In this document: piece by piece, positions 4,726 to 11,517 of the stretch
Layout: every line of letters begins with the position of its first letter
How positions within the stretch are numbered: the stretch's first letter is position 1
Assembly (NCBI GenBank): GCA_947476625.1
Contig: CANJRA010000002.1
Coordinates: forward strand, 124,001-188,000
Source of the DNA: Fidelibacterota bacterium
GTDB lineage: Bacteria; Pseudomonadota; Alphaproteobacteria; Rhodospirillales; Rhodospirillaceae
Length of the DNA: 64,000 bases
Direction: 5' to 3'
Made by a program: the position numbers and the translations under genes
Notes under the pieces: model-generated
The model's input: only the letters and a program-made list of their open reading frames with translations
The model's database searches: none
What the model was told of the DNA's origin: nothing

Positions 4726-5815
4726 TTACTCAGGACATTGAACAGGGGGGTCTATGTCGGCGGGGATGGTGTCGCTGATCACGGCCGCCCGCAATTTCGT
4801 GATCTGGGGATCGAAACCGCAGGCAATGAGATCGCCGATAATATCTAAATAAGCGGGGCGCATGCGCGGCGCGCCTGATGGTGTAGTAGCAACAATCTCG
4901 GTATGAATTTGATTGGCGGGTCGTTGCATACGCTCCATCGGCGTAATCGCGCGAATATCGAAGTGCTGTAGGCCGTAGTCGCTGAGCCGATCGGCGCCGC
5001 CGGTTCTGGGTACGTTGAAGCGGTTGGCGAAGAAGAAGATGCCGTCGGGGGTGCGTCTTGATCCATGCCACGTATGCGGCGGCGGTGGCGCGCGGCATTT
5101 CGCCCATGCTGGCGCGGTTCCATATCAGATCGAAAGGCGGGGCGGTGAGGTCGTCGGTGAAACTCGCCAGCGTGAAATTGAGTTGTGCGCCGCACGCGAG
5201 GCTTTCCGGTTTGCGCGGGTCGATCATGCAGTGCGTGCGCCCAAGGGCGATCGGGAGAAAGAGAGAAGATAGATATAAGTTCTCGGGCAAATCGATGACG
5301 GTATAGCTTTCGACATCGAGCAATTGATGGAGGATGGATGCGCCGCCGCCAAAGCCCGCGCCGGTTTCGCAGATCCGCAAGGGGCGCCCAACTGGGCCGA
5401 ATTGCTTCGCCGCCTGGACGACGCGCCATACCGGGGGAATATTGTGGAGAAATACCGAACTGAACAGATTGCCGCGATAGGGATGAACCGGAGGTGCGCC
5501 GATGGCAGGTTCGGTTATTTTTGCAATCACGTCGTCCGGAATGTTGTGCGCGTCGGCAACGCTGCTGAAGGACTGCTCCTCAAGGGCGGACATCTCGTCC
5601 TGCTCTTTCTGCGCGCCCACACCTACAATGGCTTCCGATGAGGGATGGCGAAACGTATGAAATTGTTCCGCGCTCAAAAAATTGGCGCGCTGGGCAAACA
5701 TGTCCTTCCAGAGCGGTGCAACGGTGCCGTACACGGTGTCTTTGGCGTAAGCCGCGGCGTCCCTGATCTCGGTTTGCCGCTGCGTGACAAGCGCGTTGAT
5801 GTCTCTGAAATTCAT
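4726..5815 (-). pseudogene. Putative sugar O-methyltransferase, frameshifted
   Basis: From the ATG at 5815 (MNFRDIN...) the protein reads as a SAM-dependent methyltransferase with a glycine-rich motif I (CETGAGFGGG) and the stretch DLIWNRASMGEM. It resembles the family annotated as putative sugar O-methyltransferase, which modifies glycans in surface polysaccharide clusters. Near residue 256 the frame breaks: after YVAWIKTHP the reading becomes arginine-rich nonsense. Dropping one base from the G run at 5047-5051 (a C run on the coding strand) restores DGIFFFANRFNVP and a sensible tail ending at the stop codon at 4726. An upstream in-frame ATG at 5863 is possible but adds an atypical leader. 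The frameshift could be real or a homopolymer sequencing error. The methyltransferase fold is fairly sure; the substrate is a guess. Confidence 0.65.
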
Positions 5816-5986
5816 AGCGGGTCCGATGCTGAGCGCGCGTGGCTTCAGAGGGTAAAATCGCAAAAAGGTGCTGCCAATTCGTTAATGGTAGATCGCGGAT
5901 AAGTGATTGAATGTGTTTGGTATTATTGCTGTATAATCGCGCTTGGCGTTCCGGTAGCTTCGGGCGCTTCCCGGGGGGTTCGTCTC

Positions 5987-6931: not shown

Positions 6932-7695
6932 GCTTCAATGCACGCGGGATTTGGGCGATCTACTGCTTCGAAATGGCGCGGTTTACGCGCACGATTTGGC
7001 AAAGCCTGGTGACGCCGGTGATTACAACGTCGCTGTATTTCGTGGTGTTCGGGTCGGCCATCGGATCGCGCATGAGCGATGTTAACGGCGTGCCCTATGC
7101 CGCCTTCATCGTGCCCGGGTTGATCATGATGGCGCTGTTTACCGAGAGCATTTTCAACGGCTCGTTCGGTATTTATTTCCCGAAGTTCACCGGCACGATC
7201 TATGAACTGTTATCGGCGCCGATCTCCTACGGCGAAGCGGTGCTGGCTTATGTCGGTGCGGCGGCGACAAAGTCGGTTGTGCTGGGGCTGGTTATTCTTG
7301 GGACGGCCTCGCTGTTTGTGCCGATTCACATATTGCACCCCGTGCTGATGTTGGGGTTCCTGATTTTGATATCGGTGACGTTCAGCCTGTTCGGCTTCAT
7401 CCTCGGCATCTGGGCTGACGGCTTCGAGCAGCTGAACGTGGTGCCGATGCTGGTCGTGACGCCGATGACGTTTTTGGGCGGGGCATTTTACTCGATCGAT
7501 ATGTTGCCCGCGGGCTGGCGGACGGTCGCGCTGTTCAATCCGGTGGTTTATTTGATCAGCGGATTCCGCTGGGCCTTCTTCGGCGCGTCGGATGTGGCGG
7601 TTATTTTGAGTTTGAGCACGACGCTGGTCTTCTTTTTTGCGTGTCTCACTGTCGTGGCATGGATCTTCAAGACCGGATACCGGCTGAAGAACTAA
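6928..7695 (+). CDS. ABC-2 type permease, YadH-like
   Basis: This 255-residue inner-membrane permease has about six hydrophobic segments, as in the ABC-2/NodJ/YadH family. The conserved [17 protein letters not shown] region near residue 180 and the [13 protein letters not shown] motif after it are typical. It overlaps the ATPase gene by four bases and should pair with it in a small exporter. Its 3' end overlaps the convergent thioesterase gene by four bases. Family assignment is firm; the transported molecule cannot be read from the sequence. Confidence 0.9.
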
Positions 7696-8213
7696 GCCTT
7701 CAAAAGCGCGTCCAGCTCGTCTTTCTTCTGCAAGGCGGCTGTGAAATCCGGCCGCGGCGCCGTGTAGCCCATGATGCTCATGAGCTGTTCCATCGGGATG
7801 CGGCCATTCTTGTTAATAAAAATGCCCTTCATAATACCGAGGGTGGCGGGCTCGTTGTTGCCGATGATGATGTTGTGACTAAAGTAAATCCAGCGATCAT
7901 CCCAGGACACGATGCGCGTCGTGACGCGGAACTTCTGAAACGGCGCAACGGGGCGGCGGAAACGCACGGTGGATGAGCCGAGGACGGGATAGAACCCTTG
8001 TGCCCGCAAGCGCACCCAGGCTCCCGTTCTTATCGCGAAATCGATGCGGCTTAAGTCCATGAAGCTGTAGTAGCGGCTGTTGGTCATGTGCATGTTCATG
8101 TCCAAATCCCACGGCCAGCAGCGGTAGGTGAGGGAGCTTTCCTCCATCACGCCGCGCTTCGCGCCGAAGCGGGCGGCAATCAGCATCCAGATAAGGCGGA
8201 AGATGAGGTTCAT
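7692..8213 (-). CDS. Hotdog-fold acyl-CoA thioesterase family protein (THEM6-like)
   Basis: This 173-residue protein has a hydrophobic N-terminus (about residues 1-17), then a 4HBT_2-type hotdog domain with the characteristic [18 protein letters not shown] stretch at about residues 39-56. The family is annotated as thioesterases or THEM6-like proteins. Activity on acyl-CoA or acyl-ACP is expected but not proven here. It lies 9 bp downstream of the ligase/SGNH chimera at the end of the minus-strand fatty-acid block, which fits a role in releasing or trimming acyl groups. It converges on the ABC permease with a four-base overlap. Confidence 0.8.
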
Positions 8214-8222
8214 GACCGCTGC

Positions 8223-9645
8223 CTATGTGCTTTGTTTGATGACGTAGTCTAACAGTCTTGCGCCGTTTGTGCGGCCCATATGAACGCCGTCGAAATAGTC
8301 TGCATCAACGCCGCCAAAATCCGCTGGTGTGGTGAAGGCCTGAACCGACACGCCGGATTGGCTGGCTTTCCGCAGGTGATCGACCAAAAGCGCCTGCGTT
8401 TCCAGATAGGGTGTTTGCTCCCGCAGGCGCGTAATCATCGCGGGGTGCAGGGGGTTGGTATAGATCATGAGTTCGCAACCGGCCTGCTGGGTGAGCGTCA
8501 TAAATTTATCGAGATAATGCAGCCGGCGTTGATGCAGGTGCGTAATGTCTTTCGCGGCCAGAAACTGCTGCGGCCAGACGGCGGTGATATTGGCTTCGTT
8601 GTAGGATAGCGTTTTCATATCATCGACCCGCTGGCGGAAGAGTCTGATGACGTCGCCGCTTTTGGGATCGAAGGCCCGTTCAATGTCCCATGCACTGTAG
8701 CGCACGCGCATGGTGTTGGTATGCCGCTCGCCGTCTTCGCCGGTTTCGAGAGCAAGGCCTAAGCGGCCTTCGCGATCGTTGTCGTCCAGCAAGGAAAACA
8801 GGCTGGGAGATTTTTGGAATCTGATGTCGATGGGCAGTGTGGGCGAGAACTGGATGGGATCAGCGCCCCATATGATTTTCTTAACCGCGGATTTGTTGGT
8901 TGTGAGGAAGAAGCGCGTGATGGCTTTCAGCAGCATGAGCGGGTTTTTGACCCAATCGAACGGCGACATGACGGTGATGGGCGTGCCGGTGAGAAGCGGC
9001 GTGAGTAGCGACGTCAGTAATCCCATGTCGTGATAGTAGGGAAGCCAGCTGACGATGTGGTCGTTTGGCCCAAGACCGATCTCGCGTGCGTAGGCATCCA
9101 CCTGCCACAAAAGTTGTTCCTGCGAGATCGCCACGCCCTTTTTTGTGCCGGTTGTGCCGGAACTATATTGGATAAAGAAGGTCGGGTTGTCGGTCGTCAC
9201 AACACTTGGGAGTGTGCCGGGGGCGTCGATGTCGTCGAAGCTGGCGACGCGGCGTCCAATGGCCGAGCTGAGATAAGAACAATATGAAGGGTCGCCGACG
9301 ATCAGCGACGGCGCGGCATTCTCGATCAGCGGCAGAAGCGTGCGACCGAAATCGTTGAGCGATAACTTTGCCGAAGGATGGGCCGAGACGATCGGCACGC
9401 GCCCGGTCAGAAGGGCGGCGGCTTCGGCGAGGAACACGTCGCGCGGATTAGACAGCACGAGGATGACAGTGCCGCCCACAGGAACATGGAAGCGGTCGTG
9501 CAGGCTGGCCGTGACCATGGCTTGCAGGAAGAATTCGCGGAAGGTGAATTCCTGCGCGTTAAGGCCGATCGCGCAAAAGCGCGAGCACGCGATTGGCAAC
9601 GCTGTCCGCAGCGGGTTTTGCCCCGGCTTGGCCGCGAGAGTTCAT
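8223..9645 (-). pseudogene. Chimera of an acyl-adenylate ligase N-half and an SGNH-hydrolase C-half
   Basis: The main open frame (9599-8223) begins as an AMP-binding enzyme, with the A3 motif YSSGTTGTKKG and the later YYHDMGL motif of fatty-acyl-AMP ligases. Just after LLKAITRF (about 8905) the similarity stops. The rest, ending in a DGVHMGRTNGARLLDYV stretch with the Asp-x-x-His pattern of SGNH hydrolases, belongs to an unrelated protein. The ligase has lost its second half, including the C-terminal catalytic lysine region. The hydrolase part shows no GDS-type nucleophile block. At the 5' end an ATG at 9645 opens 28 plausible codons (MNSRGQAG...) in another frame that runs into the main frame near 9565, suggesting a second lesion; otherwise the start is a weak TTG at 9599. 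I read this as two former neighbours joined by a deletion. The ligase half is sure; the hydrolase half is probable. Confidence 0.65.
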
Positions 9646-9711: not shown

Positions 9712-11517
9712 TTAGGCCGCCACCGCCGCATCGAAGAGTTCGTCTTCCATGTCCATAAGGGTCTCGCCGCCCGCCATGATAGAGGACAGCAGCGAACTGG
9801 TGATCGGCATCAGCTTGTGCATGTAGAACTTGGCGGTCTTGATCTTGCCTTTGTAGAAACCCGTGGGGTCGTCGTTCTGTTTTGCGATGGCAAGCTTGGC
9901 CATGCGCGCCCACATGTAGCCGACCGAGACGTAGCTGAGGAGCTTGAGCAGATCTGATGCGCCGGCGCCGGCTTCGTCGGGATTGCTCATGCCTTTTTGG
10001 GCGATCTGGCCAATAGCTTGTTGTAAGCGTCCGAAGCCTTTGGCGAGTTCTGTGACGATTTCTTCCATGGCCGGGTCGGCGGCGTTGTCTTCGATGAACT
10101 GCTGCACCGGATGGAAGAAGCCGCGCATATAGCGGCCGTAGTGGGCGGTCATCTTGCGGCCGACGAGATCCAAAGCTTGAATGCCGTTGGTGCCTTCGTA
10201 GATTTGCGTGATGCGCGCGTCGCGGACGAATTGCTCCATGCCGTGTTCGCGGATGTAGCCGTGGCCGCCGTAGATCTGCACGCCGAGGTTGGCATTGTCG
10301 AAGCCGATGTCGGTGCCGAAGGCTTTGACCACGGGCGTCAGGAACTGGATGAGGTCGTCGTGTTGGGTGCGCTCGGCTTCGGTCGCGGCTTTCTCGGATT
10401 TGTCCTGGCTGATGGCGACCCACATGACGAGGGCGCGCACGCCTTCGGTGAGGGCCTTCATGGTCAGGAGGTTCTTGCGCACGTCGGGATGCACGATGAG
10501 CGAGTCCGCGGGCTTCTCGGGGCTCTTTGCCCCTTTGAGGCTGCGGCCTTGCAGACGTTCACGCGCGTAAAGCAATGCACCCTGATAGGCAACTTCCGAC
10601 AGGCCGAGGCCCTGAACGCCGACGCCGAGGCGGGCGGTGTTCATCATGGCGAACATGCCGCGCATGCCTTTGTTTTTCTCGCCGACGAGCCAGCCTTGGG
10701 CGCTGTCGAAGTTAATGACGCAGGTGGCGGAGGCTTTGATGCCCATCTTGTGTTCGATGGCGCCGCAGGCTGCGCCATTGCGCGCGCCGGGCGTGCCGTC
10801 CGCTTTGGGCAGAAACTTGGGGCAAATGAACAGGCTGATGCCTTTGATGCCCGGCGGCGCATCGGGCATGCGGGCCAGTACCAAGTGGACAATATTCTGC
10901 GTCAGGTCGTGTTCGCCGGCGGAGATGAAAATCTTGGTGCCGGTGATGCTGTAGCTGCCGTCGGCCTGGGGTTCGGCATTGGTGCGGACAAGCCCGAGGT
11001 CGGTGCCGCACTGCGGTTCGGTCAGGCACATGGTGCCGCTCCAGCTGCCGTCGGTGAACTTGGGCAGATACATCTGCTTCTGTTCGTCGGTGCCGTAGAG
11101 CTTGAGCGCGTTGTATGCGCCGTGGGTGAGGCCGGGATACATGCCGAAGGACATGTTGGCCGAGCAGATCATTTCCTCGACCATCATGTTAATGGCTTTC
11201 GGCGCACCCTGACCGCCGTATTCCGGGTCGGTGCCGAGGCCGGTCCAGCCGCCTGCGGTGAACTGGTCGTAGGCTTCCTTGAAACCCTTCGGCGTGCAGA
11301 CGACGCCGTTCTCAAAAGTGCAGCCCTCTTCGTCGCCGGAGCGGTTGATGGGGAACAGCACTTCGGAGGCCATCTTGCCGGCTTCCTCAAGCACCGCATC
11401 CACCACGTCAGCCGAGAAGTCGGCGTAGCCGGTGAGGTTTTGCAGTTCGTCACCGTCAAACAATTCGCGGTAGACGAATTTCATGTCGCGCAGAGGGGCG
11501 GAATAAGTGGCTGCCAT
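9712..11517 (-). CDS. Acyl-CoA dehydrogenase, long form with C-terminal extension
   Basis: This 601-residue flavoprotein catalyses the first oxidation step of fatty-acid beta-oxidation, making trans-2-enoyl-CoA. It has the N-terminal helical domain, the middle beta domain with TEPQCGTDLG near residue 158, and the C-terminal helical domain with the QIYGGHGY and YEGTNGIQALDL motifs. The extra 130 or so C-terminal residues are typical of the roughly 600-residue DmdC/AcdA-like group. The N-terminus (SAPLRDMKFV) is also characteristic. It lies 21 bp downstream of the FadN-type gene, so it is almost surely in the same operon. Confidence 0.92.
   Translation of the reverse strand: MAATYSAPLRDMKFVYRELFDGDELQNLTGYADFSADVVDAVLEEAGKMASEVLFPINRSGDEEGCTFENGVVCTPKGFKEAYDQFTAGGWTGLGTDPEYGGQGAPKAINMMVEEMICSANMSFGMYPGLTHGAYNALKLYGTDEQKQMYLPKFTDGSWSGTMCLTEPQCGTDLGLVRTNAEPQADGSYSITGTKIFISAGEHDLTQNIVHLVLARMPDAPPGIKGISLFICPKFLPKADGTPGARNGAACGAIEHKMGIKASATCVINFDSAQGWLVGEKNKGMRGMFAMMNTARLGVGVQGLGLSEVAYQGALLYARERLQGRSLKGAKSPEKPADSLIVHPDVRKNLLTMKALTEGVRALVMWVAISQDKSEKAATEAERTQHDDLIQFLTPVVKAFGTDIGFDNANLGVQIYGGHGYIREHGMEQFVRDARITQIYEGTNGIQALDLVGRKMTAHYGRYMRGFFHPVQQFIEDNAADPAMEEIVTELAKGFGRLQQAIGQIAQKGMSNPDEAGAGASDLLKLLSYVSVGYMWARMAKLAIAKQNDDPTGFYKGKIKTAKFYMHKLMPITSSLLSSIMAGGETLMDMEDELFDAAVAA

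Follow-up and report, generated by a model that had tools for sequence, protein, structure and literature searches.

A probably inactivated gene in a fatty-acid operon points to a protein family in which a FAAL-like ligase, a carrier region and an SGNH domain resembling DltD form one chain

In the MBOAT/SGNH systems of acylation, a membrane protein hands an acyl group to an SGNH partner, as set out in the sections of PMC12148441 that deal with them. The SGNH partner is recognized by the serine of block I and by the Asp/His pair of block V, defined in the corresponding sections of PMC9487903 and PMC12148441. On the side of the ligases, didomain FAAL-ACP fusions are among the subjects reviewed in PMC11837247, and the FAAL-specific insertion and the rejection of CoA are covered both there and in passages of PMC8460268. 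The fusion partners that the relevant parts of these two papers give for FAALs are PKS/NRPS, dehydrogenases and oxygenases, and the word 'hydrolase' is absent from the main texts of both. In the literature, of which subscription journals are mostly uncovered, nothing was found that pairs a FAAL or an acyl-AMP ligase with SGNH, GDSL or DltD, and a search for FAAL together with pseudogene returned only works unrelated by title. The intact protein family to which the present locus leads was likewise not found described.

The locus lies in a window of 64,000 nucleotides, by which we mean the whole stretch of DNA that was analysed (contig CANJRA010000002.1, positions 124,001 to 188,000). It shares with FAALs and FAAL-ACP fusions the AMP-binding domain, solved FAALs are among its best PDB matches, and its relatives have the KSTSGK motif and a DSL region; it differs from them in that the window copy is only a slice and that the complete relatives add an SGNH domain. 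The best explanation, to which we give a probability of about 0.83, is that the window holds a recently inactivated gene whose ancestor, of about 950 residues, combined a FAAL-like ligase with a carrier region and an SGNH domain similar to DltD. This preserves the core of the original prediction, the collapse by in-frame deletion of a once complete enzyme within a fatty-acid operon. The remnant itself would then be an ordinary young pseudogene, and its value lies in exposing a small, patchy three-domain family. The features of the locus are collected in Table 1.

Table 1. Positions of the remnant, its parts, its operon neighbours and the related frames (window positions unless a record is named)
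Feature	Position	Strand	Basis
Open frame of the remnant (458 codons, TTG start), with ligase slice and C-terminal SGNH slice in frame	8223..9599	-	
Ligase-derived part (start of the adenylating N-domain), ending at Arg229	8913..9566	-	
A3-type motif YSSGTTGTKKG	9135..9167	-	sequence
A4-type motif WLPYYHDMGLL	9015..9047	-	sequence
Junction of the in-frame internal deletion of 1,362-1,368 bp	8910..8915	-	comparison with relatives; residues hand-counted
SGNH-derived C-terminal part	8223..8912	-	
DGVH, the DxxH (block V) Asp/His pair	8280..8291	-	
Leader frame: ATG at 9645, 28 codons, then stop; resembles the N-terminus of relatives, in a different frame	9559..9645	-	
Site of the out-of-frame 35-bp deletion, about 9566, relative to four homologous copies	9565..9567	-	
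4HBT_2 thioesterase-like gene, downstream operon neighbour, outside the collapsed gene	7692..8213	-	
Acyl-CoA dehydrogenase-like gene, upstream (named by eye)	9712..11517	-	
Paralog on contig C31; codon 873 of its open frame is followed by a single in-frame TGA, beyond which the SGNH domain continues in the same frame	L006 12285-15242	-	
FAAL-carrier-GDSL frames	L042 5814-8798, L043 5717-8734	-	

Zero stops interrupt the remnant (472 codons when measured stop to stop), in agreement with the original reading of a single frame that runs from adenylating motifs into a DxxH tail. Its residues 131-230 match the Pfam AMP-binding family PF00501 (E 1e-19, profile positions 155-255 of 384). We take the two motifs of this part to be A3 and A4, motif names (A3, A4, A10) being assigned by eye. 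Of the traits of the ANL superfamily, the window copy has the AMP-binding domain with A3 and A4 and no KSTSGK lysine region; of those of SGNH proteins, it keeps DGVH and has no block I GSS. The best solved-structure match by sequence, over residues 136-235, is 3kxw, which carries the name Saframycin Mx1 synthetase B; fatty acyl-adenylate ligases come next. The NCBIfam matches include fatty acyl-AMP ligases, all below cut-off (at best 80 of 572 bits), and the top match of the window copy is named a CoA ligase, so that the enzyme may be an AMP-ligase or a CoA-ligase. The C-terminal half alone matches zero Pfam families above cut-off and zero NCBIfam families. AlphaFold models the remnant poorly (mean pLDDT 50.6, pTM 0.48, from a 4-row alignment), which is weak evidence, as a complete SGNH domain modelled alone also reaches only 65.1. 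A plasmid search with the remnant matched 95 records, none spanning 80% of the query; among the best 20 of the 95, 19 are confined to the ligase part and one, H1, extends to residue 318 at 27% identity.

When the halves are compared separately, as had been proposed, both match the two ends of one protein of G015 (CANJBL010000023.1), at 80.8% and 54.9% identity, and because of these values the match is not due to chance. The corresponding identities to the protein of G011 (CANJPG010000043.1) are 83.6% for the ligase part and 50.7% for the SGNH part, and those to a stretch of the own genome (2.6 Mb in 50 contigs) that matches both halves, the C31 paralog, are about 69-70% and about 46%. Among 61 genomes, three besides the own one (G011, G015 and G019) hold both halves in one frame. 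Measured stop to stop, the frames have 951 codons in G015, 955 in G011, 958 in G019 and 967 in G304 (locus L047, WLXB01000039.1), and two more distant members of the class, G652 (1,034 codons) and G426 (963 codons), also have ligase and SGNH in one frame. In these complete relatives a carrier region, recognized by Pfam or by eye, sits between ligase and SGNH domain. A motif search finds KSTSGK, the DSL serine and GSSR in all five longer copies (G015, G011, G019, L047 and C31). Pfam AMP-binding coverage is 5-384 in G015, and the best stretch is 164-384 in G011, 155-384 in G019 and 151-384 in C31. PF23024, the C-terminal ligase subdomain, is above cut-off in C31 only. The phosphopantetheine site of Pfam is above cut-off in G011 and G019, below it in G015 and not listed for C31; a Pfam carrier match is above cut-off in G652 and none is listed for G426, whose best NCBIfam ligase score, 324 of 600 bits, is short of the cut-off.

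The surroundings of the gene bear on how it came to this place. The thioesterase is present in 14 of the 19 genomes of the genus, the own one included, and in all 13 others it is adjoined by the dehydrogenase, with match ends 12-89 bp apart in 11 of them. The gap is wider in G010 (484 bp) and G001 (1,211 bp), with other open frames inside, and tblastn and blastn searches for remnants of the collapsed gene in these two gaps gave chance-level matches only. By eye, the G001 gap (L084 7898-9109) holds a frame or frames of about 400 codons, TPR and sugar-transferase-like, and the G010 gap (L083 2404-2888) a GIY-YIG-like frame; the space between dehydrogenase and thioesterase is perhaps a recurrent insertion place. 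In G015 the complete enzyme stands beyond the thioesterase, and in G011 it has flagellar-looking genes (by eye) as neighbours; the G019 and L047 copies share another neighbourhood, and the C31 paralog lies beside a Maf-like gene (by eye). Since neighbourhoods differ among relatives, the gene looks like an accessory one that lands in several places, and a third-position G+C of 71% in the remnant versus 81% in both neighbours is consistent with such a gene. The neighbour names used here (FadA, FadB, dehydrogenase, ABC transporter, flagellar, NadC, Maf, GIY-YIG) are our own assignments by eye. We suppose that the gene entered a fadB-acdH-thioesterase operon as an accessory insertion. The original prediction had supposed that ligase and hydrolase began as neighbouring genes, that a single deletion joined them, and that the thioesterase completed the ancestral set. 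The window order ligase-hydrolase-thioesterase suits this origin, which is hardly credible given that all six complete relatives examined are single open frames, that 11 of the 13 congeners have dehydrogenase and thioesterase adjacent without the gene, which takes the thioesterase out of the ancestral set, and that the G015 and G011 copies stand beyond the thioesterase and by the flagellar-looking genes, respectively. As for other genes of the window, a methyltransferase-like gene (by eye; 4730-5863, minus strand) agrees at 71% with a G015 protein from residue 15 to residue 274, beyond which its frame breaks; a consensus error or a second broken gene is possible there.

Relative to G015, G011 and C31, the window copy is without 456, 454 and 455 residues, respectively, in frame (by hand count). 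The lost middle contains the remaining ligase with KSTSGK, the carrier region with DSL, and SGNH block I (GSSR). The passage from ligase to hydrolase falls inside the interval 8890-8930 that had been pointed out, and comparison with G018 and C31 suggests a possible short repeat shared at the junction, where the ancestral sequence no longer exists. Near 9566, 35 bp are absent relative to all four aligned copies, which shifts the frame: translation from the ATG ends at the stop at 9559, and the ligase frame resumes past the gap. A second break near 9565, with an ATG-started leader in the wrong frame, had been anticipated as well. Through both deletions, the window copy is left without the C-terminal lysine motif of the ligase, the carrier serine and the SGNH serine; the missing lysine and nucleophile block of the original prediction thus both belong to stretches that the relatives have.

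Both gaps might instead be artefacts of assembly or consensus, with the gene intact in the cell. Faults of this kind are suggested by the break of the methyltransferase-like gene at about 5041, beside a C5 run, and by the in-frame TGA of the C31 paralog. We regard this as improbable: homopolymer errors do not account for missing stretches of 35 bp and about 1.37 kb, contig C2 is 193 kb long, and the missing segment is on no other contig, the C31 paralog excepted. Indeed, a search of the own genome with the missing middle gave 8 matches, at 60% in C31 and next best at 33% in a ligase on C7; those besides C31, at 26-43%, cover stretches of other ligases, and a middle placed on another contig is thereby ruled out. 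A chimera of two own-genome copies is also ruled out, since both halves are nearer to G015 and G011 (80.8 and 83.6% for the ligase part, 54.9 and 50.7% for the SGNH part) than to C31 (70.0 and 46.5%).

The age of the loss can be approached through substitutions. Counts of private changes at codon positions 1 and 2, with G015, G011 and C31 as the other rows, give 14 of 319 in the window versus 27 of 637 in G015 and G011 together for the ligase part (Fisher p 1.0), and 31 of 241 versus 58 of 478 for the SGNH part (p 0.81); G019 and L047 enter pairwise values only, and G018 (L041) and the G014 fragment (L044) are omitted from the substitution counts. Rough Nei-Gojobori dN/dS values are 0.128 (ligase) and 0.242 (SGNH) for window-G015 and 0.146 and 0.252 for G015-G011, to be read with the high synonymous change, several other pairs being saturated. 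As amino-acid changes are not in excess, the death of the gene, if it is dead, is recent. Simulations that introduced nothing but substitutions into today's stop-free sequence (1,000 runs each) left 442 codons open in 50% of the runs with 0.02 substitutions per site and in 2.9% of those with 0.1; the neutral drift of the remnant has thus been short.

Low amino-acid change fits recent loss and continued use alike, and the deletion might have made a selected short protein, such as a regulator that binds acyl-AMP or AMP. The in-frame junction, the 472 stop-free codons and the lack of excess change are in keeping with such a product, as is the other in-frame loss in G018, where a complete SGNH domain has become attached to a TPR protein. 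A used protein is nevertheless very improbable, as the leader start is out of frame, the slice cuts through two folds whose half domains both lack catalytic residues, and the same joined form occurs in none of the listed matches elsewhere. Fused homologues, named in the original prediction as the sign of a genuine two-domain enzyme, do exist as one frame; a homologue with the middle absent is not among the matches listed. What tips the balance towards recent loss is the out-of-frame leader start together with the absence of most catalytic residues, and relative to longer homologues the window copy has the lost start frame and lost catalytic residues of a pseudogene. In a recently inactivated gene, function would have been lost with the 35-bp and about 1.37 kb deletions, and translation from an internal start would yield two half-domains without activity.

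For the SGNH domain, profile searches are empty: the family profile has no match among PDB sequences and only two chance-level matches, below threshold, in Pfam. The identity of the domain therefore rests on motifs, on fold comparison and on the MBOAT company of relatives. All seven complete SGNH domains aligned share GSS and the Asp/His pair of DxxH without exception. A model of the complete L048 domain, built on a 4-row alignment (mean pLDDT 65.1, pTM 0.73), aligns with DltD chains 7dxm_A (Z 12.5 over 245 residues, 4.2 A), 3bma (Z 12.3), 6o93 and 6pfx (both 12.2). The DltD alignments cover 237-251 residues, the greater part of the domain, and that of PatB 8tlb 172 (Z 11.7), the two being counted as tied on Z. 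PAF-acetylhydrolase and GDSL esterase chains follow at Z 10-11, so that SGNH chains as a whole (Z 10-12.5) stand above Rossmann-type rows (7-8). Foldseek with the same model reached E 0.001 or better for no structure; an unrelated lyase heads its rows (probability 0.20), and several DltD rows have E 4e-3 to 3e-2 and probability 0.87-0.98, with identities of about 10%. With DltD and PatB the family has in common the fold, GSS and DxxH, and, for six of nine stand-alone relatives, an MBOAT neighbour; it differs in that the SGNH domain of complete relatives is fused behind ligase and carrier and is not a separate protein.

Nine such stand-alone relatives, with frames of 341-493 codons, come from the class and phylum draws (385 and 398 genomes), with E-values per genome of 4.5e-12 to 9.8e-4, so that chance may account for a few of the weakest. 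A Pfam-confirmed MBOAT gene lies beside six of the nine (G625, G495, G712, G700, G856 and G1037), and none is seen by eye in the stretch examined for G412, G723 and G802. G268 (834-codon frame, E 6.4e-4) was left out of the nine, and weak matches to CFAP300, DUF1574 and a DfrA10 fragment were set aside. Beside the close complete copies, no MBOAT gene was recognized by eye in the fetched stretches, and the intact protein has no obvious membrane segment, again by eye only.

In intact relatives, the ligase would turn a fatty acid into acyl-AMP and load the fused carrier, from which the SGNH serine may hand the acyl group to a hydroxyl acceptor or to water. A single chain that carries ligase, carrier and DltD-like domain suggests loading and transfer without a membrane step. 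Tentatively, and with doubts outweighing confidence, the intact relatives can be regarded as an undescribed one-chain cytoplasmic acylation enzyme that combines the roles of DltA, DltC and DltD without a membrane O-acyltransferase, moves a fatty acyl group to a hydroxyl acceptor such as a glycan, and is an accessory at varied loci, repeatedly lost by in-frame deletions (window, G018) and by a stop (C31). A simple release role, as a thioesterase, is also possible. A fused protein could permit a direct test-tube assay of transfer from carrier to SGNH serine. TPR proteins lie near three family loci (L109 54-3861; L038 2-1729, called by eye; L041 1188-2849, which also has a Glyco_transf_9 match) and might hint at a glycan acceptor.

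With the own genome counted each time, the SGNH-domain profiles match in 7 of 73 genomes of the family, including 5 of 19 in the genus, in 6 of the 385 class-drawn and in 7 of the 398 phylum-drawn genomes. Damage is evident in three of the six copies seen in the genus, namely those of the window, G018 and C31, and a fourth, in G014, is a fragment only, near a contig end; each of the four could be an assembly fault. In G018 (L041 2796-4979, plus strand) the TPR protein is joined in frame to the complete SGNH domain, ligase and carrier being gone, and a NadC-like gene (by eye) comes next, as in G011.

A second three-domain family of the genus consists of the FAAL-carrier-GDSL frames of G001 and of a second copy in G011 (994 and 1005 codons). 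It has the same three-domain order; its last domain gives a weak Pfam GDSL match, below cut-off (E 0.0001-0.009), whereas that of the window family gives none. The ligase frames of G045, G047, G054 and G055 (974-985 codons) were rejected as not having the same architecture, since their C-terminal part is by eye PlsC-type acyltransferase-like; four genomes of the order have this ligase and PlsC-type-like combination as a single frame (L045 7869-10793, L115 5122-8076, L116 5066-8023 and L114 710-3640). The ligase frame of G046 has 1007 codons; in G037, G043 and G051 the frame is cut off by the contig end. Finally, the records of L046 and L048 are titled Candidatus Marinimicrobia and that of L047, of the same family, Alphaproteobacteria; the titles of L046 and L048 look mislabelled.
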